Origin: Lactarius indigo
Lineage: Eukaryota; Basidiomycota; Agaricomycetes; Russulales; Russulaceae
DNA length: 64,000 nucleotides
NCBI GenBank assembly: GCA_025766275.1
Contig: JAFKAC010000068.1
Coordinates: forward strand, 1 to 64,000
Reading direction: 5' to 3'
Below, piece by piece: positions 39,397-64,000 of this stretch. The number at the start of each line of letters is the position of its first letter. Within the stretch, counting starts at the first letter, position 1. Both the position numbers and the translations under genes were made by a program. A model generated the notes under the pieces. It saw only the letters and a program-made list of their open reading frames with translations, did not search any database and was not told the origin of the DNA.

Positions 39397-40641
39397 GTGG
39401 GAGTGCCATATCTAACTTTGTAGGATACCTCCATTACTGTACGCTCAGGCTTGGACCTTATTGTACTGTAGCTCGGAGCGTGCCAGCTCGGGCCCGTGAT
39501 ACGGACATGACGTGCCGCTTAAATATAAACGCGCAGCACTCACGCAGTCTTGTCCCACACCACAGCGCAGCACTTTCGTTACCGGCAGGTGCAATCTTCA
39601 AAGTGCGCAGTCCTTGCGCAGTCCTTAGGGTGATGCCTGGTCCGCGCATCGGCCCGGGACCACTTTCCTTCCTGCACACGTGCTACCTTCGCCCAGCTTC
39701 AAGTTAGCGGCGTTGCGATTCTCTCGGACGAAAAAAGAAACAATTTTCGTTCAAACTACATGCAATGCGATAAACCTCTCATCAGGTGACTACTGCGTGT
39801 TTCCGCTACCAGTGGCTGGCACTAGTCAAACCCGCGTGGCCCGAGGCGAGGTGTTGCCGAATCTACAATTCTCGTAACTTATTCGAACAAGCTGATTCTC
39901 GACATTGCAATGGTATCAGCTTGAATTTATTTATTTTTTGACGATTTGTGACACTAACATGAGGGCCGCAGCATTAGGGTAAACCTAAGGTAGTGTCTTT
40001 TTCTTTGAATAGGCGTGACACGACAAATATGAGTTTCAATACACTAGGTGTCAACGGGCCAGTCTGCTACATTGTGGACCCTCTCCCGATCAAACTCGTG
40101 TACAGTACATCAAGTAACTGGCTTGGGAGTCTTAGACTCCACGTAGGTAGCTCGACCGTGCCCAAGGACGCACGCCGACAGGCCAACTCAATTTCCAGAA
40201 TGCAACAAATATCTTAACAGATCTTTCATTTGCCATTTGCCATAAACCCAACCGTGGGGGCGTTCTGCGCCACTTTGCTTAATATTTCGCATCACCTAAG
40301 TTGCCACCTTTTCCAATGAAACTTAGTCACGTGTAACTATATGTTTCGAGTGTCGTTCAAGTTAACATCTTCCGAAGGCTCGCAACTCAAGGCTATGCCT
40401 CTAGTTACACGACACTGGAGACGCTGCGGAGAAGTATGCCGTCGTCTAGGTCTCAGCGGGCGCTTCATTTCGATGCGCAGTTTCTTATGCCTTCTCTTTT
40501 TGGCTTCATCGTCGTTCCCATTGATGCAACGGTCACATGTCCAGGTGAGAGTGTCGCAATGGGAATAAACACACATCCGCGCCAGTCCTACACGCGAGAT
40601 TCATCTGTCCATTTATTCGCTCAGCCAGGACACTCTGCGGG

Positions 40642-40648
40642 TATAAAA
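40642..40648 (+). promoter_or_regulatory. TATA box, LysM copy 1
   Basis: TATAAAA 65 nt before the ATG, in the conserved context GGGTATAAAATGAAGGGCTG. Confidence 0.7.
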
Positions 40649-40706
40649 TGAAGGGCTGCTCCCCTTCCTCAGACCAACAACCATCCGACGCAATCTCTAC
40701 TTTACC

Positions 40707-41425
40707 ATGCACGTCATCTCCACTGCTGCCTTTGTTTCCGTTCTTGCTCTGGCATCCACCCTAGCCTTTGCTTTGCCACAGGCTAAACCAGCAACCGGTC
40801 CTGCTCCGCAACAATCTCCGGCCCCATTGAAGTCGTCGTCTTCTGACAAGCCTGCCAGTGTTCCATGCACAGATACCTATACTGTCCCGTAAGTCTTGCA
40901 ATATCCTATCTCTTCGTGGTACCTCTCGATGTACGTGTGCTGACTGTCTTGCTCACGACCAGGCAAGCTGAACCCTGCGATACGTTGGTCGCGAAGCTCG
41001 GGCTGAGCCAGGCTGATATCTTGTCACTGAATGACGGGTTAAGCTGTAGGTGTCACTGATACAATCTGGTCGAGCGGAGCTCTGGCTGAGACACAAATCG
41101 TCACCACAGGCGACGGGAATATCCCTGCCGGCAAGGTATTGTGTATTAAGAAGCCGAAGCAAAAGTCGACTCGGGCGTTGGCCCCAAATCCCCCAAAGCC
41201 TGCACCTGCTTGCAAGACATACGCTCCGGCCACGGCCGCGACGTGCGATGAGCTGGCGGCCGAGTTTGGTCTTACTCCGGAGAAATTTGTTGAGTACAAC
41301 AGCGGCGTGAACAGCGGCTGCACGAACCTCGTTCCGGGACAAAAAGTACGTGTATTCCGTCCCGCTGATGGGCTGTGATATGACACTAACCAATCCGGGA
41401 TTAGTACTGCGTGGCCTTGGATTGA
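40707..41425 (+). CDS. Secreted two-LysM protein, copy 1
   Basis: Four exons (40707-40888, 40963-41045, 41110-41345, 41405-41425) give 173 aa. A signal peptide (about residues 1-22, hydrophobic VSVLALASTLAFA) is followed by a Pro/Ser-rich linker and two LysM domains. LysM1 covers CTDTYTV, PCDTLVAKLGLSQADILSLN, LSC and IPAGKVLC; LysM2 covers ACKTY, TCDELAAEFGLTPEKF, CTNLVPGQKYCVALD. Each domain has four Cys, as usual in fungal LysM proteins. LysM binds chitin or related glycans; secreted fungal LysM proteins can shield hyphae or sequester chitin fragments. That role is inferred from the family. The last seven codons sit in a separate 21-nt exon, common to all copies. Confidence 0.9.
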
Positions 41426-42639
41426 TACACCATAAACAACACAGATCCAGTCTTTCAACAGTGAGGAGATCCTAGGTCGTGCGCATTGAGTCATACGATG
41501 GGACCCCGTTCTGTGTGGAGGGCGCAGTTAAATCGTTTCGTTGCTTGTGTCCTAACTAGCACAGAATATGGACTAGATGTCTTTATTTTTGTCTCACTTT
41601 TGTCACCAACTACTAATCGAATAGTAGACGGCCTCGAGTCGTAATTATACCGTTTCTTATGCATGTCCGAGTCATGGCCAAACATAACTTGAAGGTCATC
41701 AAGTGGTCTCATGAGTCTTTAGGTCTTAGGCCTCTTGTCGTCACATTTCGCCTCACTCAATCCCTTCGACAGAGTAGCTGACTCTGAACTTCGCTGAGAA
41801 GCGGCGGCTAGTACATCCTTGTTGAATCTATTCTCTGACTCTGCACCAGAGAATACATCGGCAAAAGCACGTTAACATGTACTCCTGACTTATATGAAGC
41901 CATTGGGTTTAGTCCATTGGAAAAGCAAGGTTTTCATTACGTCCCGATACCGGCAGTGATTGTCCTTTCTGGCTTCGTCCCTTGTTGCGCTTCGCAGCAT
42001 CACCCGATTCCAGCTGAGTTCAAAGACGACATTTAAAACTCTTCAACTTGCTCTTCGATCTGACTTCAGCTTGGTCCGTGACTCTAAGTTGAAGACCTCG
42101 AATTCGCGACAGCCCAAGCGACAGCCTGAGGCTTACTGTATCGGGCGTGTATACAAGCACATATTCTAGCACCGGAGTCCCTAGTTCACCGTGACGGTGA
42201 CAATGACTAACAATTTGCTTCATAACTTTGAAAGCAATATGTGACAAGATATATTTTCGATTCCAGAAAATAGAAACATTATCACTTGTCTACGGTCGTG
42301 GCACCTTTTAAAGTCCCGACGAGCGCCCGTCGCCGTCTCGGACAGTGTATGATAGCGATTTTGCCTTGATAACGCCCTTCCCACTCTTCATCTACCAATC
42401 TCCGACTCCCATTGCCGCGGTGACCATCCGCTCCGTAGGCAGCATCTTGGGCATCTTGGGATTCAGCTCGGAACGGACAGCAAACCGAGACCGACATATT
42501 GGATAATCGCAATATTACCGTAGTTAAACGGTTATTTATGGAATAATATCTAAGAGATAGGAACATAGTATGCTCTACTCCAGACCTCCATCGCTCTCGC
42601 GTTCCATACATATTTGACCTCCCGCTGCGCTTAAACTCT

Positions 42640-42865
42640 TCACAGCATAACCACCGTCTCGCGCATTCCCTGCTCGAGCTTGAGAATTGAGTCGAGGGCC
42701 GCGATGTCGCTGCCTGCAAACGTAAGCAAAGTGCACCATAGACGAATGTCGTGAGCGCATGGCATGCGGCGTGGTAAGTGGCGATATTGGACTCAAAGGC
42801 GGTGTTAGCGGATTTTGCTTACCGGCCTGGGTTGAGTCGGGCGATGCGAGCGAAACGTACCACAT
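42640..42865 (-). pseudogene. Companion small gene, truncated copy A
   Basis: Exon 1 (42865-42823, starting MWYVSL) splices to exon 2 (42713-42640), whose translation GSDIAALDSILKLEQGM is the family hallmark, but a stop comes after only 38 aa. Homologous sequence continues beyond the stop to about 42290. The function is unknown; see the intact copy at 46530-46884. Confidence 0.45.
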
Positions 42866-43985
42866 TACTGTAATATAAACGCACAGTACTCGCTTGAGTA
42901 TTCACGCAGTCTTGTCTTACACCCCAGCGCAGCACATTCGTTACAGTACCGACCTTTCGCACAAAGCTACAGGCACAATCTCCAAAGTGCGCAGTCCTCA
43001 AGTGATGTCCGGTTCGCGCACCATATCACTTTTCCTCCTGCACACGTGCCATCTCCCGCGTCCTGCTTAGCGAGCAGCGATTCTCTTGGACGGGCAAAGA
43101 AACTATTTTCGTTCAAGCTACATGCAACGCGATGTACCTCTCATCAGGTAGCCATTGCGTGTTTCCAGTTTCCACTCCCAGTGGCTGGCACTGGTCAATC
43201 CCGCATGGCCCGAGGCGAGGTGCTGCCGAATCTACGATTCTCGTAACTTATTCGGGCACGCTGATCCTCCACATTGCCATGGTATCAGCTTGTTTTTTTT
43301 TGTTTTTTTGTTTTTTGTTTTGGCGATTTTTGATGCTAACATGAGGGCCGCAGCATTAGGGTAAACCTGCGGCAAAGTCTTTTTTCCTTTGAATAGGCGT
43401 GACACGACAAATATGGGTTTCAATACGCTAGGTGTCAACGGGCCAGTCTGCGACATTGTGGACGCTCGCCCGATTGCACTCGTGTACAGTACATCAAGTG
43501 ACTGGCTTGGAAGTCTCATAGTCCATGTAGGTAGCTCCACCGTGCCCAATGACACACACCCTGGAAAAGCCAAGTCAATTTCCAAATGCAGCAAATATCT
43601 TAACAGATCCTTCATTTTCCATAAACCGAGTTGCGAACTCTTCCAATGAATCCTAGTCACGTGTAACTATATGTTCCGAGTGTCGTTCAAGTTAACGTTG
43701 ATCTTCCGACGGCTCGCAACTCAAGGCTATGCCTCTAGTTACACGACGCTGGAGACGCTGCGGAGAAGTATGCCGTCGTCTAGGTCTCAGCGGGCGCTTC
43801 ATTTCGATGCGCAGTTTCTTATGCAATCTCTTTTTGGCTTCATCGTCATTCCCATTGATGCAACAGTCACATGTCTAGGTGAGAGTGTTGCAATGGGAAT
43901 AAGCACACATCCGCCCCGGTCCTACACGCGAGTTTGAAGTAGATTCATCTGTCCATCTATTCACTCAACCAGGACTCTCTGCGGG

Positions 43986-43992
43986 TATAAAA
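43986..43992 (+). promoter_or_regulatory. TATA box, LysM copy 2
   Basis: TATAAAA 65 nt before the ATG in the same conserved context as copy 1. Confidence 0.7.
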
Positions 43993-44050
43993 TGAAAGGC
44001 TGCTCACCTTCCTCAAACCAACAACCATCCGACGCAATCTCTACTTTACC

Positions 44051-45485
44051 ATGCACGTCATCTCCACTGCTGCCTTTGTTTCCGTTCTTGCTTTGGCATC
44101 CACCCTAGCCTTTGCTTTGCCACAAGCTAAACCAGCAACCGGTCCTGCTCCGCAACAATCTCCGGCCCCATTGAAGTCGTCGTCTTCTGACAAGCCTGCC
44201 AGTGTTCCATGCACAGATACCTATACTGTCCCGTAAGTCTTGCAATATCCTATCTCTTCGTGGTACCTCTCGATGTACGTGTGCTGACTGTCTTGCTCAC
44301 GACCAGGCAAGCTGAACCCTGCGATACGTTGGTCGCGAAGCTCGGGCTGAGCCAGGCTGATATCTTGTCGCTGAATGACGGGTTAAGCTGTAGGTGTCCT
44401 TGATACAATCTGGTCGAGCGGAGCTCTGGCTGAGACACGAATTATCACCACAGGTGACGGTAATATCCCTGCCGGCAAGGTATTGTGTATTAAGAAGCCG
44501 AAGCAAAAGTCGACTCGGGCGTTGGCCCCAAATCCCCCAAAGCCTGCACCTGCCTGCAAGACATACGCTCCGGCCACGGCCGCGACGTGCGATGAGCTGG
44601 CGGCCGAGTTTGGTCTTACTCCGGAGAAATTCGTCGAGTACAACAGCGGCGTGAACAGCGGCTGCACGAACCTCGTTCCGGGACAGAAAGTACGTGTATT
44701 CCTTCCCACTATAGGGTGTGCGACATAGTGCTAACTAATTTTTTTTTTTTTTTTTTTTTTTCAATCAATTTATATTCCGGGGTGCGTAATGCGAGTTACA
44801 GACCGGTCGGGCCGACTAACTACCTAATCTAACCCATTTACGAAACACGTTCGATAAGTGGCCGATTTATGAGTCGCAGCCACGCGAGATAATTTAGCGG
44901 TTACAGAGACGCCAACCCATAGGAGGTCGGCAGGCGTAGGAGGGTCCCGGTAAAGGGCGCCTTAGTAATATTCGGTAATGCAACTGTCCATCGTACGTGT
45001 GTCATCATCAAGCCTCCTCCACTCAAACCACCGGTTACACGGTCCGGTGCTTGGCCGGGTGAATGAGGGCGGGCGAGACGAATCGGGAAGGAGCAGCGGC
45101 ATGTCGGGTTAGGGTAGAACCGGGGGGCAGCTATTTGAACGGACCCCGGAGCGTGGGTATGCCGGTGGTGCTGCGGCAGGGACCCGGGTAGGACGGAGAG
45201 TGAACGTCGTGCGGCGCGATGCCACGTGGTGGTTAAGCCCAGGTTTGGTTACCCCGGGTGGCTGTCAAAGGGCCGGCCGGTTTGTTGTGGAGCCGGAACT
45301 CCGTGGGTGTTCATGTGCCGGGGCACGGGGTAGCCCGCAGGGAATGCACCAGCCCGGATTCGAACCCAGAGTCCGTCACCAGAGCTGTCCCGTGTAAGGC
45401 GAGGGGGGGAGCAATAGCCCATTGCACCACACTCCCCCCTTAGTGCTAACTAATTCGGGATTAGTACTGCGTGGCCTTGGATTGA
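44051..45485 (+). CDS. Secreted two-LysM protein, copy 2 (SINE in intron 3)
   Basis: Exons 44051-44232, 44307-44389, 44454-44689 and 45465-45485 give 173 aa, almost identical to copy 1 (signal peptide, linker and both LysM domains the same). Copies 1 and 2 are therefore the youngest pair. Intron 3 is 775 nt instead of about 60, because a SINE is inserted in it on the opposite strand. If the enlarged intron is spliced, the protein is normal. If it is not, the frame reads a few codons into the intron and ends early, losing the terminal YCVALD with the last Cys. Confidence 0.88.
44726..44740 (+). repeat. Target-site duplication, left
   Basis: TAGTGCTAACTAATT, identical to 45441-45455 on the far side of the SINE. 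The exact right edge is blurred by the adjoining T-run. Confidence 0.85.
44741..45440 (-). mobile_element. tRNA-derived SINE
   Basis: A 700-bp insertion bounded by a 15-bp direct repeat. Read on the minus strand it begins with a tRNA-like head: A-box-like TGGTGCAATGGG at 45429-45418 and a perfect B box GGTTCGAATCC at 45366-45356. It ends in a long A-run (the T-run at 44741-44761). These are the marks of a tRNA-derived SINE copied by a partner LINE. No open frame is expected and none is recognised. The middle body is not assigned. Confidence 0.88.
45441..45455 (+). repeat. Target-site duplication, right
   Basis: A second copy of TAGTGCTAACTAATT, running straight into the intron's own 3' end (CGGGATTAG) as in the other LysM copies. 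Confidence 0.85.
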
Positions 45486-46529
45486 TACCCTGGAAACAGC
45501 ACAGACTTGAGCACGGATCTAGTCTGTCAACAGTGACGAGATCTTCAGTCGTGCGCCTTGGTAGTCCCTTTTCTGTGTGGAGGGCGAAGTTTAGTTGATC
45601 GCAGAATTTTCTCGTTTCATGTCCTTACTACAGACTATGGACTAGATTAATTTCTATATCTCCCCCTATGTCTTCCCAACTACTAATCGAATAGTAGACT
45701 GTGTAGACGGCTTTGAGTCGTAATTATACCGCGTCTTATGGATGTCCGAGTCAAGGCCGGACATAAGTTAGTGATCGCCAGCTTATCAAGTGGTATCACG
45801 ACCCTCCTCGGGTCTCTTGTCATCACGTCACTGCCCCTCTCAATTCCTTCAACTGAATGGCTGACTCGAACCCCACTGAGCGGCGGGTAGCACGTTATTT
45901 TTTAATCCATTTTCGTGCCTTGTTTCGTGCACCCCCAAATACACTGGAAGAACCCTATGTAGCACGCCGTTAACCGATACTTCTAACTAACAACGGTTGT
46001 ACATGCCAGTGGGGTTTAGTCCTTTGGAAAATCAAGGGTATTGTTAGTACGGTCTTAGTCCAAGTCGTGTGAATTTCGAACCCCGCTTGGGCACGCGCGA
46101 ATCGAACCCTGGGGCGTAATTCACGTGTCGCTGGCGGCGAGTGATCGCTTTCATTGATGCTTCATAAAGCTTCATATAGCTTCATAGCTTCATCTCTTGT
46201 TGCGCTACTAGTATCTCACCCTTGACTCGTGAACCCGATTCCGGCTGAGTTCAAAGGCTGAGCTCAAAGACGATTTTTGTAGGCTGGCACCACTCTTTCA
46301 ATTCTACTGTAGAATAGCTGAGCGCTGAGCGCCGAGGAACTATTCACGATGAGGTACTGTATCGGGAATGATGTGTATATCGTAGCATTGAAGTCCCTTC
46401 TCAAGTTCTCCATGACTGCGACGATGACTGACGAAGCGCTTTATAGATTCGAAAGCAGCACGTTACACACGAGCGTGTCCTTTTAATATTAGAAAAATAG
46501 ATGACCTAGGCATTGTCGCCTGTCTACAG

Positions 46530-46884
46530 TCACATATAAAGCCCTGACGACTCTGTCTCGCCAACGTGCAGATAAACAGCGTTTCGTTCTTTGTAAATAA
46601 CTGTCACAGTAGCGGTCTCGCCGGGTCGATGTCGACGACGCTTATCCATAGGCAGCAGCAGCACCGTCTCCGAATCGAGCATGAGCTGCTCAAGCTTGAG
46701 GATCGATTCGAAGGTCTCGACGTCGTCTCCCGCAAACGTGGAAAAGTGCGTGGCAAGCGAATGTCGTGCGTGCAGGGCGTGCGTGGGCGTCGCGTGGTAA
46801 GAGGCGAGAATGGACTCCGGGAGGCAGTGGATTTTGCTTACCGGCCCGGGTTGGATTGGGTAGCGTGACCGTGACGTACTGCAT
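46530..46884 (-). CDS. Companion small gene, intact copy B (79 aa)
   Basis: Two exons (46884-46842 and 46726-46530) join in phase to 79 aa. The start MQYVTV matches the start of copy A. Exon 2 carries DDVETFESILKLEQLML and ends in HVGETESSGLYM. Related minus-strand sequence occurs in three other units with the hallmarks SDIEALDPI and IDVGETATVHVG, always on the strand opposite the LysM gene. I know no family with this pattern. There is no signal peptide, so an intracellular product is likely if it is expressed. The acceptor here (GGGAG) differs from the TTTGCAG of other copies. Confidence 0.4.
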
Positions 46885-47976
46885 AATGAAAACGCGCAGT
46901 CTTGTCTTTCACCACAGCACAGCACGTTCATTACAGTACCGACCATTCGCACAAGGGTAAAGTCTTCAAAGTGCGCAGTCCTCAGGTGATGCCTTGTCTG
47001 CGCATCGGATCACTTTCTCTCCTGCACACGTGTCACGTCCAGCTTAGCGATTAGCGAATCTCTTGGATGAGCAAAGAAACACTTTGAGTTTAAACTACGT
47101 GCCATTCTATACTCTCATCAGGTGAATACGATTGCGTTCTTCTGCCGTTCAAACCCACGTGGCCGTCGGCGAAGCGCAGTTCTCGTAGTTGGGGACAGGG
47201 CCGGGGAGTCGACGGGGATGCTGCTCCTCAACGGTGCCATGGTACTAGCTTAATTCTATTGATTGGCAGCGCTAAAATGAGGGCCGCAGGATTAGGGTGA
47301 ACCTATGACAGAGTCTTTGATCTTTGAATGGGCGATACGAAAAACACGAGTTTCAATCTGCACGCTGTAGATTAGTACTAGGCCCCATTACTCCTCGCTC
47401 GGTTGAACTCAAGTATTTCGAGTGACTGGCTTGGGATTCTTAGACTCTATGTAGATGGCTCCACAGACACACACTGGATTGGCTAACTACAGCAAATACC
47501 TTAACAAATCTATCATTTGCCACAAACTCAACCGTAGATGTACCCTGCGCCACTTCGCTCCATATTTCGCGTTACCTAGGCTGTGCTCTCGGCCACAGCC
47601 ACCACGCGGCCAACTTTTCCGAGGAAACGTAGTGAGTGTAACTAGTGAGTGTAACTATATGTACGTTCAGAGTGTCGTTGATCTTCCGAGGGCTCGCAAT
47701 TCAGGCAGTGCTTTAAGTTACGCGATACCAGAGACGCTGCGGAGAAGTTTGCCGCCGTCTATTCCCCACTGGCGATGGGGCCTTTCATCTTACTGCGCAT
47801 TTTGTTACTATGTTATATCTTTTTGGCTCATCGTTATTCCCATTGATGCCACCGCCACATCTCCGTGTTGCAAAGGGAATATGTACACATCCGCACCGAT
47901 CTCACATGGATGCTTGAGGTAGATTCATCAGTGACTCATCTACCCGTCTATTCGCACAACTCGGGCTCCCTGAGGG

Positions 47977-47983
47977 TATAAAA
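47977..47983 (+). promoter_or_regulatory. TATA box, LysM copy 3
   Basis: TATAAAA 68 nt before the ATG in the conserved promoter context. Confidence 0.7.
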
Positions 47984-48044
47984 TGAAGGGCTGCACCCTT
48001 TCTTTGGAGCATCAACCATTCGACGCGACCTCCTCTACTTTACC

Positions 48045-48746
48045 ATGCACGCCATCTCCACTGCTGCCTTTGTTTCCGTTCTTGCCTTGGTATCGTCGCT
48101 GGCTGCTGCCATTCCAGCAGCCAGTCCGGCTCCGCAGTGTACTCGTATGTCAACATCTTCATCTTCATCTCACTCCTGGTTGTCTGACAAGCTGTTCAAT
48201 GCACAGAAACGTATACCCTCCCGTAAGTCTTGCAATATCCTATCTCTCCGTGGTGCCTCCAGATGCACGTATGCTGACATGTCTTGCTCACCACCAGGAA
48301 AGCTGAACCTTGCGATACCCTCGTCGCGGAGCTCGGCCTTAGCCAGGCTGATATCTTGTCGCTGAATGACGGGTTAAGCTGTAGGTGTCCTTGATACCAT
48401 CCGATCGAGTAGAGCTTAAGTCGAGACCCAAATTGCCACCACAGGTGACGGCAACATTCCCGCCGGCAAGGTATTGTGCATTAAGAAGCCGAAGCAAGTG
48501 TCGTTGTTGGCGCAAAAGCCGGCGCCTGCCTGCAAGACGTACGCTCCGGCGACGGCCGCGACATGTGACGCGCTGGCGTCCGAGTTTGGTCTTACTCCGG
48601 AGAAATTTGTCGAGTACAACAGCAACGTGAACAGCGACTGTACCAACCTCGTTCCGGGACAGAAAGTACGTGTATTACCTCCCACTATAGGGGGTGTGAC
48701 ATAGCACTAACTGATTCGTGATTAGTACTGCGTGGCCTTGGACTGA
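48045..48746 (+). CDS. Secreted two-LysM protein, copy 3 (extra linker intron)
   Basis: Five exons (48045-48144, 48207-48222, 48298-48380, 48445-48665, 48726-48746) give 146 aa. Signal peptide (VSVLALVSSLAAA), very short linker, then LysM1 (TYTLP, PCDTLVAELGLSQADILSLN) and LysM2 (ACKTYAPATAATCDALASEFG, CTNLVPGQKYCVALD). The DNA that codes the Ser-rich linker in copies 1, 2 and 5-7 is here an intron (48145-48206, GTATGT...GCACAG). Without removing it, LysM1 is out of frame, so splicing is required. Confidence 0.85.
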
Positions 48747-50730
48747 TACGGGGAAAGCAGCACAGATCTAGTCTGTCAACAGCGAGGAGATCTTCTGTCG
48801 TGCGAGTTGATAGACCCTTTCTGTGTGGAGGGCAAAGTTTAGTTGATCGCAGAGTCTTCTCGTATCCCTACTGCAGACTATGGACTGGGGTTTTTAATCT
48901 TGTGCATTTATTCGACTAGTAGTACTAATTGAACGGACTGAGACGACTTTGGAGTCGTAATTATATCTTGTCTTACGCATTTCATGACCGAACGTTAACC
49001 TCGAGTTTATCAAATGCTCTCATGACCAAGTTTGCTCCTTTTTTTTTTTTTAAAAATCCATTTTTGTGCGCCTGAGGGAATTGTACCCTATGTAGCACTA
49101 CACTTGTGAATATCAAGTATGCTCCTATCCCTAGGTATTAACTACGGCAATGTACGGATTATCTAATATATGGGTCTAGCCTCGGGTTGTACTTTCCGAG
49201 CTGTATCCCAACAATATTTCAATACCGTAACTGTTGTTCGTGGGCTTTAATCCTTTGGCTGAAAAAGGAAAGCTATTATAGTACGTCCTATTTACAGCGA
49301 TCGATTCTTCCCTTTTGGGGTTTATATCATCTGATTCTGGCCGAGTTCGAACTTCAAAGACGATCTCTCCATACTCTTTCAATCTGACCCGCAGAGGAGC
49401 TCTAATTCGCGATGAAGCTCACTGTCTCGGGGCACAAATCGTACGAGCACGTGCTCATCCACATTCACTCACTCCTTTGTCGCTCCAGCAGAGACAGGCC
49501 ACTCAGGCTGGATACTACTGTAGCTGCCAACTCGCGTGATGCGGACTTGACATGCCGCATAAATACAAGCACGGAGTACTCGCGCAGGTTGTCTTACACC
49601 AGAGCGCAGCACGTTCGCTACAGTACCCTTGACAGTACCGGCCATTCGCACAAGGCTACAGGCACAGTCTTCGAAGTGCGCAGTCCTTAGGTGATGCTCG
49701 GTCCGCTCATCGGATCACCTTTCCTCCTGTACACATGCCACGTCCGACTTAGCGAAGAGCGATTCTCTGAATTTCTCTCGGATGAGCAAAAAAAAAAACA
49801 TTTTTTTGTTCAAACTACATGCGATGCGACGTCATGGTAGCTCACATCAGGGGAACGTTGTGCGCTTCTACCAGCCAAACGTGGCCCCCGGCGAAGCGCG
49901 GTAATACAGTGTCGGATCTACAGTTCTCGTAGTTGGGGACAGAGCTAGGGTCGCTGTTCCTCAACGGTGCCGTGGGGTGAGCTTAATTTTATTGACAAAT
50001 GGTGGCGCTAATATGAGGGCCGCGCATTAGGGTAAACCTGCGGCAGAGTCTTTTTTCTTTGAATAGGCGATACGACAACACGAGTTTCAATACGCTAGAT
50101 GTCAACGGGTCAGTATCAGTTCGTCTGCAACGCTAATTGATTAGTACCAGTTATTGATCCTCGCCGGATTGAATTTTATGTACATAAAGTGACTGACTTC
50201 AAGTTGGAATTCTTTGACTCGGGATTCTGTGTAGGTAGCCTAAGGACACACGCCCCGTACCAGCAGCCTTTGATCTCCAGAATGCGGCAAATACCTTAAT
50301 ACATCCTTCGTTTCCAAAACTCATCCACAGACACGCCCTGCACCACTTCGTTCGCGTCACTGGCACCCTCCGTGCTGCGCTTTTGGCTACCAATTTCCGA
50401 TCGAACGTAATACTGGTACGTGAGTGTAAGTAAGTTTCGAGTGTCGTTGATTATTTGACGGCTCGCAACTCGGGGCAATGCTCTTAGTTACACGAGTTGG
50501 AGATGCTGCGGAGAAGTATATCCCCCACTGGCAACGCGCCTCTCATTTCGCTGCGCAGTTTTTGATGCAATATCTTTTTTGGCTTTGTCGTCATTCCCAC
50601 TGGTGTAATGGTCATATGTTCGGGTGAGCGCGTCGCAATGGGAATAAGCACACATCCGCGCTGATCCCACACGCGTGCTTGAGGTAAATCCATCCATCCG
50701 CCTATTCGCGCAACTCGGGCTTCCTGCGGG

Positions 50731-50737
50731 TATAAAA
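50731..50737 (+). promoter_or_regulatory. TATA box, LysM copy 4
   Basis: TATAAAA 65 nt before the ATG in the conserved promoter context. Confidence 0.7.
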
Positions 50738-50795
50738 GGAAGGGTTGCTCCCCTTCTTCAGACCAACAACCATTCGCCACTTTACAGTCTTTACC

Positions 50796-51510
50796 ATGCA
50801 CGCCATCTCCACTGCTGCCTTTGTTTCCGTTCTTGCCTTGGTATCGTCGTTGGCCGCCGCCACGCCAGCGACCGGTACGACGCCACAGTGTATCAGTATG
50901 TCTTCGTCTTCGTCGCCTCCACTCCCGGTTGTCTGACAAGGCTTTTCTATGCACAGAAACGTATACCGTCCCGTAAGCCTTGCAATACCGCATCTCTCCA
51001 TGGCGCATCCAGATGCACGTATGCTGACCTGTCTTGCTCACCACCAGGAAAGCTATACCTTGCGATACCCTCATCGCGGACCTCGGCCTGAGCAAGGCCG
51101 ATATACTGTCGCTGAATTCTGGGTTTAGCTGTAAGTATCCCTGATACAGTCCGATCGAGCAGAGCTCTGGCTGAGACGCGAATTGTCACCACAGGTGATG
51201 GTACCATCCCCGCCGGCAAAGTCTTATGCATTAAGCAATCGAAGCCAAAGCCGGCTCGGATGTTGGTGCCAACGCCCAAAAAGCCGGCGCCTGCTTGCAA
51301 GAAGTACGTGACTGCCTCGGAAACGACGTGCGACGAGCTGGCGCCCAAGTTCGATCTCACTCCGAAGGAATTCATCGAGTACAACGACGGCGTGAACGAC
51401 GACTGCACCAACCTCGTTCCAGGACAGAAAGTATGTGTATTCCTTCCCACTTCGGGAGTGTGACATGGGACTGACTGATTCGGGATTAGTACTGCGTGGC
51501 CCTCGATTGA
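50796..51510 (+). CDS. Secreted two-LysM protein, copy 4 (extra linker intron)
   Basis: Five exons (50796-50895, 50957-50972, 51048-51130, 51195-51430, 51490-51510) give 151 aa. Like copy 3, it has an additional intron (50896-50956) replacing the coded linker, and a 16-nt exon. LysM1 (PCDTLIADLGLSKADILSLN) and LysM2 (CKKYVTASETTCDELAPKFD, CTNLVPGQKYCVALD) are complete with all eight Cys. Among the tyrosine-bearing copies it is the most diverged in LysM2, with more acidic residues near the chitin-contact loop (EYNDGVNDD). Confidence 0.85.
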
Positions 51511-53100: not shown

Positions 53101-53219
53101 GGCGTACAGGGCGACGTCCATGCACAGAGAGTGCGCGGGGTAAGAGGTGAGACTGGACTCACGGGTGTGAACGATTTGATAGGGGAGGGCGCGTTAGCGG
53201 ATTTACTTACCGGGTTGAG

Positions 53220-54510: not shown

Positions 54511-55774
54511 ACGCCCGCTGGTCAATAGAACAAGCCATCTGGTCTCGAGGCTTGAGTGTAATATCTATAACTTTTGCAGGGTACCACCCATACGCTCAGG
54601 TCAGATCCTATTGTAGCATGCCAGCTCGCGTGATGTGGACGTGACGTGCCGCATGAATATAAATGCGCAGTATTTGTGTGGTCTTGTCTTACACTACAGC
54701 GCAGTACGTTCGTTATAATACCGACCATTCGCACAAAGGCTACAGGCATAGTCTTCAAAGTGCGCAGTCCTCAATCATTCTTAGGTGATACCCGGTCCTT
54801 GCGTCAGATCGCGTTTCTTCATGTGCACGTGTCACGGCGAATAGCGAATCTCTTGGATGAGCAAAGAAACACGCTGCGTTCAAGCTACGTGCCGTGCTAT
54901 GTAGCTCTCACCAGGCGAACGCGATTGCGTCCTTCTACTGGTCAAACCCGCGTGGTCCTCGGCGAAGCACAGTTCCCAGCGCCGAATCTACAGTTCTCGT
55001 CACTTAGTCGGGGATGCTGTTTGTTAACATTGCCATGGTATCAGCTTGTGTTTTTTTTTTTTTGACGATTGTGACACTAAAACGAGGGCCGCAGCACTAG
55101 AGTAAACCTGCGACAAATATTTTTCTTTGAATAGGCGGTACGGCAAACATGGGTTTCAATATGTTGGGCGTCAACGGGTCTGTCTGTAACGCTGTGGATT
55201 TTCGCCCGATTGATCTCGTGTGCATCCAGAGACTGGCTTGGAATACTTCGACCTGTAGGTGGCTTCACCACAAGGACGTGCACCCTGGACAGGCCAACTC
55301 GATTACCAGAGTGCATTGAACACCTTAACGAGCCCTTCATTTAACACAGACCCAACCATGACACGCCTTGTGTCACTTGGGTCGATATTTCGCGTCACTG
55401 GCACCCGGGCTGCGCTTTCAGCTATAGCTACCAACTTTTCCGATGAAACGTAATACGTGACTCTAACTATATGTACGTTTTGGGTGTCGTTGATCTTCCG
55501 ACGGCTCGCAACTCAGGGCAGTCTTCCCTATTACACGACACTGGAGACACTGCGGAGAAGTATGCCTCCCGCTAGCAATGCGCCTCTAATTTCGGTGCGC
55601 AGTTTCTTATACAATATCTTTTTTGACTTCATCGTCGTTTCCATCGGTCTAACGGTCACATGTCCAGGTGACCGTGTCGCAAAGGGAATAAGCACACATC
55701 CGCGCCGATCCCACACGCATACTTGATGTAGGTCCATCCAACCGCCTATGCGCGCAAGTCGGGCTCCATGCGGG

Positions 55775-55781
55775 TATAAAA
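55775..55781 (+). promoter_or_regulatory. TATA box, LysM copy 5
   Basis: TATAAAA 74 nt before the ATG in the conserved promoter context. Confidence 0.7.
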
Positions 55782-55848
55782 CGAAGGGCTGCTCCCCTTC
55801 TTCAGACCAACAACCATTCCACCCAATCTCTACTTTACAGTCTTTACC

Positions 55849-56546
55849 ATGCGCACCATCTCCACTGCTACCTTTTTTTCCGTTCTCGCTTTGGTATCAT
55901 CCCTAGCCTTCGCTCTTCCACAAGCTAAACCAGCAACTGGTCCCGCTCCGCAACAATCTCCAGCCCCATTGAAGTCCTCGTCTTCCGACAAAGCTGTTCC
56001 ATGCACGGATACCTATACTGTCCCGTGAGTCTTCCAATATCCTATCTCTCCGTGGCGCCTCCAGGTGTACGTGTATTGACCGTTTTTCTCACCACCAGGA
56101 AAGCTGAACCCTGCGATACCCTCGTCGAGGAGCTCGGCCTTAGCCAGGCTGATATCCTGTCGCTGAATGACGGGTTAAGCTGTAGGTGTCCTTGATACTA
56201 TCCGATCGAGTAGAGCTCAAGTCGAGACCCAAATCGCCACCACAGGTGACGGCAACATTCCCGCCGGCAAGGTATTGTGCATTAAGAAGCCGAAGCAAGT
56301 GTCGTTGTTGGCGCAAAAGCCGGCGCCTGCCTGCAAGACGTACGTGACGGCCACGGCCACGACATGTGACGCGCTGGCGTCCGAGTTTGGTCTTACTCTG
56401 GAGAAATTCGTCGAGTACAACAGCAACGTGAACAGTGACTGCGCTAACCTCGTTCCAGGACAGAAAGTACGTGTATTCCCTCTCGCTATAGGGGCGCTAC
56501 ATGACGCTAATTGTTTGACGAATAGTACTGCGTGGCCTTGGATTGA
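55849..56546 (+). CDS. Secreted two-LysM protein, copy 5
   Basis: Four exons (55849-56024, 56099-56181, 56246-56466, 56526-56546) give 166 aa. Signal peptide (MRTISTATFFSVLALVSSLAF), coded Pro/Ser-rich linker, LysM1 (CTDTYTVP, PCDTLVEELGLSQADILSLN, IPAGKVLC) and LysM2 (ACKTYVTATATTCDAL, CANLVPGQKYCVALD). Its 3' half is close to copy 3 while its 5' half is close to copies 1 and 2, which suggests exchange between units. Confidence 0.9.
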
Positions 56547-57335
56547 TACCCGGGAAACGCAGACCCAGTCTGTCAACATGTCAACAGTAACGAGATCTTC
56601 GGTGCGAGTCATGCGCATTGATGGACGCTCTTCTGTGTGCCAGCGGAGGAGACGAAGTTAAATTGATCGGAAAGTTTCTCGTGTTCCTACTGGAGACTAT
56701 GGACTGGATATTTTAATTGTGTGTCCCCCGACTAGTACCAATTGAACGGACTCGAACGACTTTGAAGTCGTAATTATACCTTATCTTTTGCATGTCATGG
56801 CCGAACATAAGTTACCTCCTGCTTGTCAAGTGCTCTGGCGATCGTCTTGTCATCGCGAACCGCCCCACTCAATCCCTTCAACAGAGTAGCTGGCTCGAAA
56901 TTCACCAAGGAGCGGCCGTGAGTAGTATTATATCCTTTTTAAATACACCCGAGATTCGGATTACATTGGCAGAAACCTATGTAGCAAGCGAACCTACACT
57001 TCTCACCAATGACCGTTCACAGACGGTCTAGTCTGAGTCCTCCAGAAAAGCAAAAAGCTGGTATATTTTATGGTTAGTTACAGCGGGAGTCCTCGATTTT
57101 TTCAACTTCGTATGAGCTTCGTGGCGTTGTATCAACAAAGTCAACAAAGTTTATCGCCCGATCTCGGTCGTGTCACGTGTGCAAAGACGATCTGGCGGAA
57201 TCTCATTGACATGTTACAGTAATGGTCGATGAAAGGCTTCATAAATTCGAGAGCAGCTCATTGTACGCAACCGTATCCTCTCACCGTGATATTAATAGAT
57301 AAATTAGGCGCAGTAAAATTGTCGCTTGTTACATT

Positions 57336-57815
57336 CTAAAGCCCCGACGGCTCGGACTCACCTACATGCACTGTAGCACTCTCACCGACATCGATGGCGC
57401 CCACAACGCCCTCCATCCACCAGCCTCCGACTATCGCGGTGGTCATCCGCCGTACAACGTCCACCAGACCGTCGTCCCTCCTGTGGGCAGCATCGTTACC
57501 ACACGCTCGGCGAGCTCGAGCTCGAGCTCGACGATCGGGTCGAGCGCCTCGATGTCGCTGCCCATAACGTGGTAAAGTGCATTGCGAGCAAACGTCGTGC
57601 GCACAGGGTGACATGCACGAGAAGAGCGTGGGCGGGGGTCGCGTGATGAGAGGTGAGAATGGAGTGCACGATCTGGAAGGGAGGAGGATGGCGCTAGCAA
57701 ATTCCTTACCGGGCTGAGAAAAGGGGGCACACAAGCGAGAGCGAGATATGCGTACGCGGAAGCCGAGGTGAGAGACGAAGGAGAGAGAGAACCGCCGCGC
57801 CAGATGGGGAGCATC
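57336..57815 (-). pseudogene. Companion small gene, decayed copy
   Basis: The block GSDIEALDPIVELELELAERVV is open, but the splice acceptor before it has lost its AG. A one-base frame change is then needed to reach DVVRRMTTAIVGGWW and the terminal AIDVGESATVHVGESEPSGL. A GAGCTC repeat at about 57506-57533 expands the middle of the conserved block. Confidence 0.5.
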
Positions 57816-58545
57816 GCGATGTCAAACGGGCCATATTTTGATCAGATCTCTACACAGTGATACAATCTCGACGATACCGCAGCCTTCGTGGACTCTAATC
57901 GACCCTGCGGTGTGGTTTGGGGGTCACATACCGCTAGTACGTTGGACCGATGTACAAACAAACTTGGGCCCCTGAAGCTTGAAGCTTGAAGGGCTGGCCT
58001 AGCGGAACGAGGGAATGCACGCGGTCGCGGCGCGGCTCGTGGATCCGTTGCAGGCGTTGGGAAGTAGAGATGGACATAGCTGTGACATTTTATGTTTATT
58101 TATTTCGGCTGGGAGGCATGAAGGGGAAACGGGTGTACGGGTTCCCCAGAGCAGACAGAATTAACACACCGGTTATGGATGAATTGGAAGTCGGGCAGGT
58201 CAGCGATCGGAGTCTGAGCGCGCAGGGAGGCACGTGCTCATTCCTCTATTCCGTGCCGCCATGCCGCCACTACTCCGCCACCTGTCGTACCCATCTTCTC
58301 AATCAACCGTACTGCTCTTTTCTTTTCCCAGCCCGCCCCACCCAAGAATTCCATCGCCAAGGGATCGATTATGAGTCACTTGTCCCTCGCTCGCTGGTAC
58401 GCTCCGGTGTCTTGACCTCGCCTCGGGCACAAAAACCCCTCGTTTTCGACCGAGAGGCGTGCTTCTGCCCTGTCTCTGCTCGCCCATAGCATACCTACCT
58501 AATCGCTCGCTGCCTTGTAACTTGCCCTTTCCTCGCCACCCCCTA
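57715..58545. repeat. Extra segment shared with 53220-54510
   Basis: Counterpart of the segment before copy 5, somewhat shorter. It contains a direct doublet GAAGCTTGAAGCTTGAAG near 57974. No gene is supported. Confidence 0.6.
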
Positions 58546-59927
58546 GTACGCCCGTTGGTCGATAGAACAGATGTTTATATTTTCTCTCTCCCCGTGCCTT
58601 TGCGCTTGGCCTTTTCTATCTTTGCAGGTCTTCCCCGCTCGGCACTGCATGGACACGCCTTCCTGGCAAACCGAATAACTCACCTGCAAAGAGAGCTAAA
58701 TCTTGCGGAAGAGCGCCACAGAACCGACACACCGCGTGTCCAAGCCATGTCGCCTTGAGATTCGATGTAGGTAAGAGTGTGATATCTGTAACTTTTGTAG
58801 GATACCGCCCATACGCTCATGTTGGACCCTAGTAGAATGCCGGCTCGTGTGATGCGGATGTGATGTGACGCATCAATATAAACGCGCAGTACCCACGCAT
58901 TCTTGTCTCACACTACAGCGCAGCACTTTCGTTACAGTCGCGACAGCTCGCTACAGGCACGGTCTTCAAAGTGCGCAGTCCTCAGTCTTTCTTAGGTGGT
59001 ACCTTGTCCGCGCATTAGATCACCTTTCCTCCTACACGTGCACACGTGCCACGTCTAGCTTAGCGACTCGTAATGGCAATTCTCTTAGATGAACAAAGAA
59101 ATACTGTTCGTTCTACAAGCGATGCCATGTATCTCACAGCAGGTGAGTACGGTTGCATTCTTCCTCTAGTCAAACATACATGGCCCATGGCAAAGTGCAG
59201 CTCTTTGGTGCCAAATCTACGGTTCTCGTAACTTAGTTGGGGGCGGTGTTAGTCAACATTGCTATGGTATCAGCTTGATTATTTTGACGATTTTTGACGC
59301 CAAAATGAGGGCCGCAGCATTAGGGTAAACTTATGGCAGAGTCTTTATCCTTTGAATATGCAATACGACGAACATGAGCTTCGATACACTAGGTGCCAAC
59401 GGATCAATCTGCAAGGTTGCGAATTAGTACCAGGCCTCGTTAATCCTCGCTCGGTTGAATCTATGTATATTGAGTGACTTCTTGGGATTCTCGTATTCTG
59501 ATGGCTCCACCACCAAGGACCCTAAGCGACCCGGACTGGCTAAATCAACTTTCGGGACACAGCAAATACATTAAGTAATCCTTCTTCATCTGCCACAAAC
59601 TCAACCTTGGATACGTTCTGTGCCACTTCGCTTCCGACGGCCCGCAAACAAGGGGAATGCCCTCAGTTACACGAACTGGAGACGCTGCGGAGAGGTACTA
59701 TGCCCCCACTGGCAACCCGCCTCTCATTTCGCTTCGCTGCGCAGTATCTTATGCAATCTCATTTTTGACTTCATCACTATTCCCATTAGTCTGACGGTCA
59801 TATGCCCAGGCCGGGTGACCGTGTCGCAAGGGGAATGAGCACACATCTGCGCCAACCCCACATCCGAGCCTGACGTAGACGTAGATTCATCAATCTGTCT
59901 ATCTGTGCAACTCGGGCACCTTGCAGG

Positions 59928-59934
59928 TATAAAA
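59928..59934 (+). promoter_or_regulatory. TATA box, LysM copy 6
   Basis: TATAAAA 74 nt before the ATG; the preceding bases are CAGG rather than CGGG. Confidence 0.7.
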
Positions 59935-60001
59935 CGAAGGGCTGCTCCCCTTCTTCAGACCAACAACCACTCCACCCAATCTCTACTTCACAGTCTTTAC
60001 T

Positions 60002-60697
60002 ATGCACACCATCTCCACTGCTACCTTTTTTTCAGTTCTCGCCTTGGTATCGACCTTGGCCCTTGCCATGCCACTAGCTATACCAGCAACTGGTCCGGCT
60101 CCGCAACCATCTCCGACGCCATTGAAGTCGTCGTCTCCTGACAAGGCTGCTCCATGCACAGATACCTATACCCTCCCGTGAGTCTTGCGATATCCTATCT
60201 CTCCGTGGCGCCTCCCGATGCACGTGTGCTGACTGTCTTGCTCATCACCAGGCAAGCTGAACCTTGCGATACACTGGTCTCGAAGCTCGGTCTGAGCCAG
60301 GCTGATATCCTGTCGCTGAATTCCGGGCTAAGCTGTAGGTGTCCCTGATAGAATCGGATGGGGCAGAGCTCTGGCTGAGACACAGACCGCCACCGCAGGT
60401 GTCGGCAACATTCCCGCTGGGAAAGTATTGTGCATTAAGAAGCCGAAGCAAGAGTCGTCGTCGACACAAAAGCCGGCGGCTGCCTGCAAGAAGCAGGCAA
60501 CGGCCACGGCCACGACATGCAACGGGCTGGCGACCGAGTTTGGTCTGACTGCGAAGAAATTCATCGAGTTCAACAATAACGTGAACAGTGAATGCACTAA
60601 CCTCGTTCCAGGACAGGCCGTACGTGTATTCTCTCTCGTTATAGGGGGTGCGACATAGCGCTAACTTCGTCACTAGTACTGCGTGGCCTTGGATTAA
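60002..60697 (+). CDS. Secreted two-LysM protein, copy 6
   Basis: Four exons (60002-60177, 60252-60334, 60399-60619, 60677-60697) give 166 aa; the stop is TAA instead of TGA. Signal peptide, coded linker and LysM1 (PCDTLVSKLGLSQADILSLN) are standard. LysM2 differs: the Tyr after the first Cys is Gln (ACKKQ), the tract reads TCNGLATEFGLTAKKF, and the last junction reads PGQA before YCVALD. Copy 7 shares these changes, so copies 6 and 7 form a subfamily that may bind a different ligand or bind less tightly. Confidence 0.88.
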
Positions 60698-61505
60698 TAC
60701 CCGGGAAACATCGCAGACCCAGTCCGTCAACAGTGACGAACTCTTCGGTCATGTCCATTGAGTCATATGATGGTCTCTCTTCTGAGTGCAGTGAAGGGCA
60801 GAGATATAATTGACCGCAGCGTTTTCTCTTTTTTTTTTTTTTTTTTCATATTCCAACTACAGACTGTCTTTATTATTGTGTCTCCCCAACTACTAATGGA
60901 ATAGTAGACGACTTTGAGTCGTAATTATACCACGTTTTATGATGTCCGAGTCTTGGCCTTGCCTAAGTTACCTCCAGCTTATCACTGGCAAGTACTCTCA
61001 TGACCCTCTTGTCGTCACGCCTCGCCCCACTTAGTTCCTTCAACAGAATAGCTGACTAGCTGACTCGAACTTCGCTACGCTGAGGCGGTGGTTAGCACTT
61101 TCTTGAATTTATTTTCGTGCACCGAAGAACATACTGGCAGAACTCTATGCAGCACGTTAAACTATACTTTCAACTAATAACTGTTGTTCATGGGGTTCAG
61201 TCCTCTGGAAAAAGCAAGGCTATTATTAGTATGCCCTATTTACAGCGACCGACTTCGTCCCTTGTGGCGCTATATTTACCCGATTCTAACCAAGTTCAAA
61301 GACGGACTCAATACTCTTTCGATCTCACTGTAGAGGGCCCGAGAGACTATTCACGATGAGACTTACTGTACCGGACATACTCACAGATGGAGGTGTACAC
61401 ATCGTAGTGCTGAAAACCCTTCTCGAGTGCGGGTGACGGCGACGATGACTGACGAGGCGCTTTATAAATTTGAAAGTAGCCCATTGTGCACAAGCGTGTC
61501 CTTTA

Positions 61506-61812
61506 CAACAGGGTCCAAAACTATTGGCACTTTCAGAGCCACTGGCACATGGTGCGGACATACTAAATTCACCAGCGCGGTTCATAATTAAGTGGGAGGA
61601 GAGCCTGAGATCTTCGGAAAATTGGTTATGTTGCAAATATTGAGTTATGGAATAACGTTACCGTGTCAAAAGCAACAATATATAGATTTATTTTGTATTT
61701 ACAACATTTATTTTCCCTCGGAAAAGCATTAGCATGGGTGTGTTCAAACTCCGCTAATTTACCTCTGTTCAAAATTTCCAAAACGGAAAGTGCCAATAGT
61801 TTTGGATGCTGC
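61506..61812. mobile_element. TA-flanked MITE (Tc1/mariner-like ends)
   Basis: Terminal inverted repeats share CCAAAACTATTGGCACTTTC (left from about 61514, right mirrored at about 61786-61806). The element is flanked by TA on both sides (61504-61505 and 61813-61814), the target duplication of the Tc1/mariner group. It is about 307 bp and has no transposase frame, so it is non-autonomous. It lies where other units carry the companion gene region, which is missing here. Confidence 0.8.
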
Positions 61813-62951
61813 TATCCAGTACATATAATCGCGCAGTACGTGTGCAGTCTTACCTTATACCGTGCAGCATGTTCGTTACCGTACCGACTATTTACTCAAG
61901 ACTACAGGCACAGTCTCCAAAGTGCGCAGTCCTCAGTCGTCCTCGTCCGCGCATCAGATCACTTTTCCTCCTGCTGCACACGCGCCACATCCAGCTTAGC
62001 GAATAGCGAATCTCTTGGATGAGCAAAGAATCACTTTCCGTTCAAGCTACATGCGATGTGATGTAGCTTTCATCAAGTGAACACGATTGCGTTCTTCCAC
62101 CACGCCGAGTTGGTGAAGCGCAGTTCTCTGGTGCAGAATCTACAGTTCTTGTAACCTACTGTAATCAGGGACAATATTCCCACTTTTCCTCAACATTGCC
62201 ATGGTATCAGCTTGACTTGATTTTTTATTTTTATTTTGACTATTTGTGACGCTAAAATGAGGGCCGCAGCATTAGGGTAAACCAGCGACAAAATCTTGTT
62301 CTTTGAATAGGCGATACGACAAAAAAGAGTTTCAACATGCTAGGTGCCAATGGGTCAATCTGAAACACTGTGGATTTTCGCCGATCGAACTTATGTACAT
62401 CAAGTGACTCGCTTGGGATTATTGGACTCCGTGTCGGTGGTTCCACCCCAAGGACGCACACCCCGGACAGGTCAACTGGATTTCCAGAATGCAGCAAATA
62501 CATTCACAAATGCCTCATTTTACAAACCCAACCATGGACGCACCCTGCGCCACGTCGTTCAATATTTCGCGTCACTGGCACCCGTGCCGCGCTTCCAGCT
62601 ACCAAACGTTTGCCATGAAGCGCAGCATAGCAGTACGTGAATATAACTATATGTACGTTTTGGGTGTCGTTGATCTTCCGACGGCTCGCAATTCAGGGGA
62701 ATTATCTTCTCTACACAAACTGGAAACGCTGCGGAGATGTATGCGCCCCACTGGCAACGCGCCTCTCATTTCGCTGCGCAGTTTCTCATGCAATTTCTTT
62801 TTGATTTCGTTGTTATCCCCATCGGCCTGATGGTCACATGTTCAGGTGACCGTGTCGCAATGTGAACGAGCACATATCTGCGCAGATCCCACACCTGAGC
62901 TTGACGTAGATTCATCAATCTGCTATGCGTGGAACTCGGGGACCTTGCGAG

Positions 62952-62958
62952 TATAAAA
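62952..62958 (+). promoter_or_regulatory. TATA box, LysM copy 7
   Basis: TATAAAA 74 nt before the ATG in the conserved promoter context. Confidence 0.7.
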
Positions 62959-63025
62959 TAGAGGGCTGCTCCCCTTCTTCAGACCAACAACCATTCTACC
63001 CAATCTCTACTTTACAGTCTTTACC

Positions 63026-63711
63026 ATGCGCACCATCTCCACTGCTACCTTTGTTTCCGTTCTCATTTTGGCGTCCACCCTAGCCTTCGCTCTTCCACAA
63101 GCTAAACCAGCAACTGGTCCTGCTCCGAAACAATCTCCAGCCCCATCGAACCCCTCGTCTTCTGACAAGGCTGCTCCCTGCACAGATACCTATACCCTCC
63201 CGTAAGTCTTACAATCTCCTATCTCTCCGTGGCGCCTCCCGATGCACGTGTACTGATTGTCTTGCTCGTCACCAGGCAAGCTGAGCCTTGCGATACCCTC
63301 GTCACGGAGCTCGGCCTGAGCAAGGCTGATATTCTGTCGCTGAATTCCGGCCTAAGCTGTAAGTGTCCCTGATAGAATGGAATGGGGCAGAGCTCTGACT
63401 AAGAACTGACCGCCATCACAGGCGACAGCAACATCCCCGCTGGGAAAGTATTGTGCATTAAGAAACCGAAGCAAGAGTCCAAGTCGGCGCCTGCGTGCAA
63501 GACTCAGGCGACCGCCACGGACACGACGTGCGACGGACTGGTGTCCAAGTTTGGTCTGACTGCGAAGAAATTCGTCGAGTACAACAGTAATGTGAACAGC
63601 AACTGCACGAACCTCGTTCCGGGACAGGCGGTACGTGTAATTTCTCTCGTCATAGAAGGTGCGACATAGCACTAAAGAATTCGGGATTAGTACTGCGTGG
63701 CCCTCGATTGA
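63026..63711 (+). CDS. Secreted two-LysM protein, copy 7
   Basis: Four exons (63026-63201, 63276-63358, 63422-63630, 63691-63711) give 162 aa. Signal peptide (FVSVLILASTLAFA), linker, LysM1 (PCDTLVTELGLSKADILSLN, LSC, IPAGKVLC) and LysM2 (ACKTQ, TCDGLVSKFGLTAKKF, CTNLVPGQA, YCVALD). It has the shortest linker between the two domains and the Tyr-to-Gln change shared with copy 6. The hairpin region follows at 63884-63917, and the array appears to continue past the window. Confidence 0.9.
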
Positions 63712-64000
63712 TACCCGGGAAACACAGATCCAGTCCGTCAATAGTGACGAGATGTTTGGTCGTGCACATTTAGTCATACTATACATCGACCGTCTTCTGT
63801 GTGGAGGGTGGAGTTGAATTGATCACAGAGTTTTCTCGTCTCTCGTTCTAACTACAGACTGTCTTTATTGTGGTTTCTCCTCAACTACTAATCGAATAGT
63901 AGACGACTTTGAGTCGTACTTATACCGTGTCTTATGCATTTCCGAGTCATGGCCGAACCTCAGTTGCTTCCGGTTTGAATCCAATTTCGTGCGCCGGAAA

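Follow-up and report, generated by a model that had tools for sequence, protein, structure and literature searches.

In the ectomycorrhizal milk-cap Lactarius indigo, the first 64,000 nucleotides of contig C257 (the stretch analyzed here, hereafter the window) carry seven intact tandem genes on the + strand for secreted proteins with two LysM domains. Five of these genes (long form) read as a coding Pro/Ser linker a segment whose homologue in copies 3 and 4 (short form) is an intron, and copies 1 and 2 are alike through gene conversion between old duplicates. We consider it quite probable that the locus as a whole is a tandem two-LysM array with conversion between copies, two splice states, an intron turned coding, and products that bind polymers of N-acetylglucosamine (GlcNAc). 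Some 1.25 kb of upstream DNA was duplicated along with the genes, and the copies swap sequence by conversion, so that copies 1 and 2 are homogenized within each haplotype and copy 3 is a mosaic. In this account, an ancestral short intron after the codon for the first cysteine of the first LysM domain (LysM1) would have been kept in copies 3 and 4 and in a divergent paralogue on contigs C256/C237; elsewhere it would have become the coding linker, with a TGC at the old acceptor taking over as the first LysM1 cysteine.

Seven two-LysM genes on two contigs

All seven gene models (Table 1) have an open frame, a signal-peptide-like start (called by eye) and eight cysteines, four per LysM domain, which is the fungal type of LysM. 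The final exon is 21 nt long in every copy, and the proteins end in YCVALD. The first-pass annotation of this DNA, made from its letters, had already described seven intact secreted two-LysM genes, which these models bear out. It also had exon phases preserved throughout, which overlooks the extra intron that gives copies 3 and 4 five exons. In the four proteins scanned, two stretches each matched Pfam LysM above the curated cut-off (37.1 to 46.6 bits versus 20.9), and no other domain passed its cut-off; the seven proteins are 146 to 173 amino acids (aa) long and have no catalytic domain. The beta-alpha-alpha-beta fold that defines the LysM (CBM50) domain was found. Copy 6 had no identical match among the public proteins fetched.

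A second contig, C124, carries these seven genes in identical order and, when reversed, is colinear with C257:1-76,110 at 93 to 98.5% identity per chained block. This rules against an assembly artefact, which had been named as a possible origin of the array and was rejected because the array is present on two contigs. C124 is probably the other haplotype rather than a duplicated segment, and we refer to the alleles on C257 and C124 as A1 to A7 and B1 to B7. A genome-wide DNA search gave 26 matches: 7 on C257, 7 on C124, 6 covering the query fully or nearly so elsewhere, and 6 partial ones. The gene start motif occurs seven times on C257, searched up to base 104,000; B5 fell outside the first version of this motif and was modeled separately. 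Further long-form loci outside the array are found on C270 (at 1934130, 1977302 and 2065098, spread over about 130 kb) and on C281/C5. A LysM exon 3 fragment with an in-frame stop lies in other DNA at C90:532484-532652 and C288:73239-73395, two contigs that look allelic.

An intron homologous to a coding linker

Read without an extra intron, A3, B3, A4 and B4 contain 3, 2, 4 and 5 stops, respectively. Removal of a GTATGT...CACAG intron of 61 to 62 nt leaves copies 3 and 4 open with eight cysteines in all four alleles, and for A3 and A4 the public models coincide exactly with our five-exon models. An intron occupies the same position, in the same phase, in the divergent paralogue on C256/C237, and the C256 intron is similar to those of copies 3 and 4 (0 of 500 shuffles reached the score in each comparison). 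The stops could also mean that copies 3 and 4 are pseudogenes broken in exon 1, with only five of the seven genes intact, and the allelic changes in copy 4 (3 synonymous, 4 non-synonymous) show no constraint by themselves. That a canonical intron opens all four alleles, that the public models agree and that the C256 intron matches in place and phase makes this very improbable, and the pseudogene interpretation was rejected on the linker-intron model and the public models.

The introns of copies 3 and 4 are homologous to the coding linkers: when each was compared with six linkers, 0 to 3 of 500 shuffles reached the score in 12/12 tests. Genes that splice the segment out encode their first LysM1 cysteine by a TGT just before the donor, whereas long-form genes use a TGC aligned with the TGCACAG that ends the intron, i.e., at the old acceptor. 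One protein position is thus filled by non-homologous codons. The long-form segment is a Pro/Ser linker whose length is a multiple of three and which is free of stops in all 15 models (A1, A2, A5 to A7, B1, B2, B5 to B7, C5, C281 and C270a to c); the C19 gene was excluded from this count because of insertions and deletions. Over six long-form allelic pairs, the part of the linker that corresponds to the intron shows 5 synonymous and 2 non-synonymous changes. In copies 3 and 4, no site of the linker introns (0/123) differs between haplotypes, compared with 3.3 to 4.5% of sites in other introns.

Several observations weigh against a linker intron turned coding. The similarity of the C256 intron to the coding linkers is not clear (5 to 65 of 500 shuffles reached the score in 6/6 tests), and the public model of the C256 gene, P0031, agrees on the linker intron but reads through the last one. 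Among paralogues, the intron-homologous part of the linker has 33 synonymous and 57 non-synonymous single-change codons, indicating weak constraint. Lastly, the splice junctions are predictions derived from sequence and public models.

The direction of the switch was addressed with outgroups and trees. All 19 added outgroup proteins, from Russula, other Lactarius species and metagenomes, are of the short form, with the first LysM1 cysteine near the signal peptide and no linker, and a 70-row tree nests the long form within the short one, which together favor loss of splicing over gain. C256, which bears the intron, is the first branch of its 46-row group. The intron state is therefore most likely ancestral, and the long-form genes probably represent de-intronization. 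The reverse course, with an ancestral coding linker and an intron gained by copies 3 and 4 and the C256 gene, fits the homology data equally, as these are compatible with either direction, and a survey of 28,256 Cryptococcus introns reports five intronizations and no de-intronization (PMC2740785). Given the early branching of the intron-bearing C256 gene, the uniformly short outgroups and the nesting of the long form, we regard such a gain as unlikely.

Loss of splicing is not without difficulties. With all rows of the 70-row tree, the long form needs four changes; it needs two when A3, B3 and three read-through rows are set aside, and one origin is not rejected (approximately unbiased [AU] test, p 0.641). 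The trees were built on about 100 columns from genes that exchange sequence. The outgroups were compared as proteins, so that the link between short form and intron comes from C256/C237 alone. The first tree held 33 of 59 public relatives and 19 of 21 L. indigo models. For the second one (70 rows), P0053 was omitted for its long branch, P0079 was represented by 25 residues, and 19 of 61 new matches were added, these 61 having come from scoring only the 7997 candidates that shared most words. Of 23 proteins fetched, P0088, P0110, P0113 and P0119 were left out. Short and long states were assigned by eye.

De-intronization has been defined as the reading of a whole former intron as coding sequence, with a length that is a multiple of three and no stop (Roy 2009, PMC2740785). 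All 15 modeled long-form genes of L. indigo have these properties, the direction being the probable one given above. Beyond that definition, the L. indigo case also shifts a disulfide cysteine to a non-homologous codon, which suggests that a conserved disulfide cysteine can persist while its codon is replaced by unrelated DNA. Whole introns turning coding are seldom documented and are thought to be very rare. Here a single array, present on two haplotypes, contains both splice states, and sister species provide possible intermediates, so that each step is open to testing with reads. Three public proteins from other Lactarius species, P0015, P0017 and P0028, read through the intron-matching segment (MSSSS...SDKA...), which may reflect annotation choices, retained introns or true intermediates. 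P0015 has a cysteine before the donor and another before the acceptor, P0028 has the first cysteine only, and the P0017 model lacks the upstream part. With cysteines on both sides, either splicing outcome would leave P0015 a complete LysM1. We tentatively suggest, as a possibility we rate as rather doubtful, that the Lactarius linker intron is dual-readable: regulated retention would yield short and long isoforms and offer a buffered path to a fixed linker, later spread or overwritten by gene conversion.

Gene conversion and the duplication unit

Copies 1 and 2 were compared on both contigs by asking whether site patterns unite the sequences by copy or by haplotype. In the flanks, 132 events follow copy orthology (118 between -1150 and -60, and 14 between +651 and +690, relative to the ATG), and none unite the copies within a haplotype; in the gene body, from -60 to +651, the counts are 0 and 10. 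Changes in a single sequence number 54, 4 and 27, and crossed patterns 1, 0 and 1, in the upstream flank, the downstream flank and the body, respectively. The tract bounds -60 and +651 were chosen once the pattern was visible, and end-gap columns beyond +690 were excluded. Since flanks follow the copy and bodies follow the haplotype, copies 1 and 2 are old duplicates that were homogenized by gene conversion, separately on each contig.

Sequence identity along the two copies gives the same picture in the flanks. On C257, copies 1 and 2 are 97 to 99% identical from the ATG through exon 3, 93 to 95% between -400 and the ATG, 79 to 89% beyond -400, and 63% just past exon 3. The alleles of each copy are 92 to 100% identical beyond -400 and just past exon 3. 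Within the gene body, identity between copies (96 to 99%) is close to that between alleles (96 to 98%), so that the case for conversion rests on the site pattern. The near-identity of the gene bodies on C257 had been taken as a sign that amplification continues, copy 1 or 2 being a recent duplicate in an array that is still growing. The diverged flanks, on which this interpretation was rejected, together with the opposite site counts inside and outside the body, leave it hardly credible, and conversion takes its place. Near-identical LysM copies may thus stem from conversion rather than from a new duplication, a distinction of importance wherever expansions are interpreted as adaptive.

Exchange also reached copy 3, a mosaic whose first 100 bases are nearest to copy 4 (82% versus 66 to 72%) and which is 96 to 99% identical to copy 5 from +300 to +500. 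An initial division of the array into three types holds in part: copy 3 is partly copy-4-like and partly copy-5-like, and copies 6 and 7 cluster weakly in the tree (86/73), together with the C270 genes.

The genes share more than their coding sequence. About 1.25 kb of upstream DNA can be aligned in nine genes (copies 1 and 3 to 7 and three dispersed ones) at 59 to 80% pairwise identity, compared with 36 to 37% farther out; for copy 2 the comparison spanned about 1 kb. Overall, this region is about as conserved as synonymous sites among paralogues (pS, the proportion of synonymous sites that differ, is 0.33), with 15-base blocks near -303, -75 (TATA-like) and -727 that are 89 to 96% alike. Shared control of the genes is plausible.

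Selection, predicted function and neighboring features

A single-ratio GY94 codon model was fitted on a fixed tree of 20 genes, an assumption of one tree that gene conversion violates. The ratio of non-synonymous to synonymous rates (omega) was 0.356 overall, 0.189 in LysM1, 0.366 in LysM2 (the second domain), 0.364 in the signal peptide and 0.517 in the linker. Nine allelic pairs differ by 60.5 synonymous and 38.5 non-synonymous changes, a per-site ratio (pN/pS) of 0.21; by part, it is 0.13 in LysM1, 0.11 in LysM2, 0.14 in the linker, 0.80 in the signal peptide and 0.59 in the inter-domain stretch. The synonymous skew is clear in LysM1, LysM2 and the linker (binomial p < 0.001). Among the seven paralogues pN/pS is 0.34 (LysM1 0.19, LysM2 0.42), and comparison with the C256 paralogue gives 0.39, the inter-domain stretch reaching 1.55 on a small number of sites. 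The C257 copies 1 and 2 show nine synonymous differences and code for one and the same protein. Purifying selection acts on the LysM domains, as the first-pass annotation had proposed from the open frames, leaving the dN/dS of each domain between copies as a check. Omega in the inter-domain stretch, 0.779 (0.50 to 1.27), is indistinguishable from 1, and the allelic changes in the signal peptide and inter-domain stretch show no skew in the binomial test.

LysM domains bind the GlcNAc polymers of chitin and peptidoglycan alike, and the array proteins are best explained as secreted GlcNAc-polymer binders, to judge from their domains and signal peptides. Such proteins might shield hyphae or hide chitin fragments from host roots or competitors, a putative effector role, with array copy number supplying dose and diversity. 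Among the best structure matches are LysM domains of plant chitinases (5bum, 4pxv and 5ylg), which differ from the L. indigo proteins in that the latter lack a catalytic domain; a PDB sequence search at E 0.1 gave two matches only, 5bum and 4pxv. Ecp6 of Cladosporium fulvum (4b8v), with three LysM domains, is weakly similar to the L. indigo proteins, which have two.

Rather than the host plant, the target of the proteins may be competing microbes, or they may protect the wall of the fungus itself. This possibility deserves real weight, although we do not place it first: structure matches span plant chitinase and bacterial LysM domains, and the double binding range of LysM domains would serve it. 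In addition, a word search of the main text of a Lactarius-pine symbiosis transcriptome paper (PMC8417538) found none of LysM, CBM50 and indigo, and its abstract describes few mycorrhiza-induced small secreted proteins.

Lebreton and colleagues (New Phytologist, 2022) are said to have noted a high copy number of small secreted LysM proteins in Lactarius, the same genus and kind of protein as in the array. In several species, including L. vividus (4 relatives), L. deliciosus (6) and L. hengduanensis (6), relatives probably share a contig. To the known Lactarius LysM proteins, L. indigo adds the array structure on two haplotypes, the conversion tracts and the switched intron, none of which turned up in our searches of an open-licence library.

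Table 1. Coordinates of the LysM genes and associated features in the window
Feature	Position	Exons	Strand	Remarks
LysM copy 1	40707-41425	40707-40888, 40963-41045, 41110-41345, 41405-41425	+	173 aa; Pfam LysM E 2.4e-11; 8 Cys; identical to public protein P0012
LysM copy 2	44051-45485	44051-44232, 44307-44389, 44454-44689, 45465-45485	+	173 aa; protein identical to copy 1 and P0012
LysM copy 3	48045-48746	48045-48144, 48207-48222, 48298-48380, 48445-48665, 48726-48746	+	five exons; 146 aa; identical to public P0006
LysM copy 4	50796-51510	50796-50895, 50957-50972, 51048-51130, 51195-51430, 51490-51510	+	five exons; 151 aa; identical to public P0001
LysM copy 5	55849-56546	55849-56024, 56099-56181, 56246-56466, 56526-56546	+	166 aa; identical to public P0021
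LysM copy 6	60002-60697	60002-60177, 60252-60334, 60399-60619, 60677-60697	+	166 aa; Pfam LysM E 1.1e-9
LysM copy 7	63026-63711	63026-63201, 63276-63358, 63422-63630, 63691-63711	+	162 aa; identical to public P0034
Linker intron, copy 3	48145-48206		+	62 nt; GTATGT...CTGAC...CACAG; homologous to coding linker of long-form genes
Linker intron, copy 4	50896-50956		+	61 nt; in-frame stop if retained
Gene-conversion tract, copy 1	40647-41357 (about -60 to +650 from ATG)		+	partner tract in copy 2 at about 43991-44700
Co-duplicated upstream region, copy 1	39457-40706 (about 1.25 kb)		+	TATA-like GTATAAAA near -75; conserved blocks around -303 and -727; present upstream of copies 3 to 7 as well
SINE-like insertion, copy 2 last intron	44740-45440		-	about 700 bp; poly-T at 44740; 14- to 15-nt target-site duplication (TAGTGCTAACTAATT)

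Two length differences distinguish the haplotypes. The last intron of copy 2 is 775 nt long owing to an insertion resembling a short interspersed nuclear element (SINE), which is missing from the C124 allele (alignment break 44740/45441) and has 47 matches in the genome, a count that includes the insertion itself and many partial matches. Copy 2 may still be spliced across its insert, as its donor and acceptor are intact and its probable branch site is present in duplicate. Between copies 4 and 5, about 41 kb on C124 (C124:57721-98795) stand against about 50 bases on C257; the two frames of this stretch that were scanned match reverse transcriptase with integrase or with endonuclease, the latter as in long interspersed nuclear elements (LINE-like).

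Scanning the window for Rfam families and tRNAs produced no matches. Directly before the array, at 37074-39396, lie phospholipase D-like frames with an HxK-type motif (by eye), the first of which had no Pfam match at 1e-3. Two frames farther upstream, at 34204-36258 (+) and 2986-3789 (-), have starts that are very alike and both give a sub-threshold winged-helix match; the former is rich in ankyrin repeats (Pfam Ank_2, E 2e-110); the two recall fungal NLR-like proteins.

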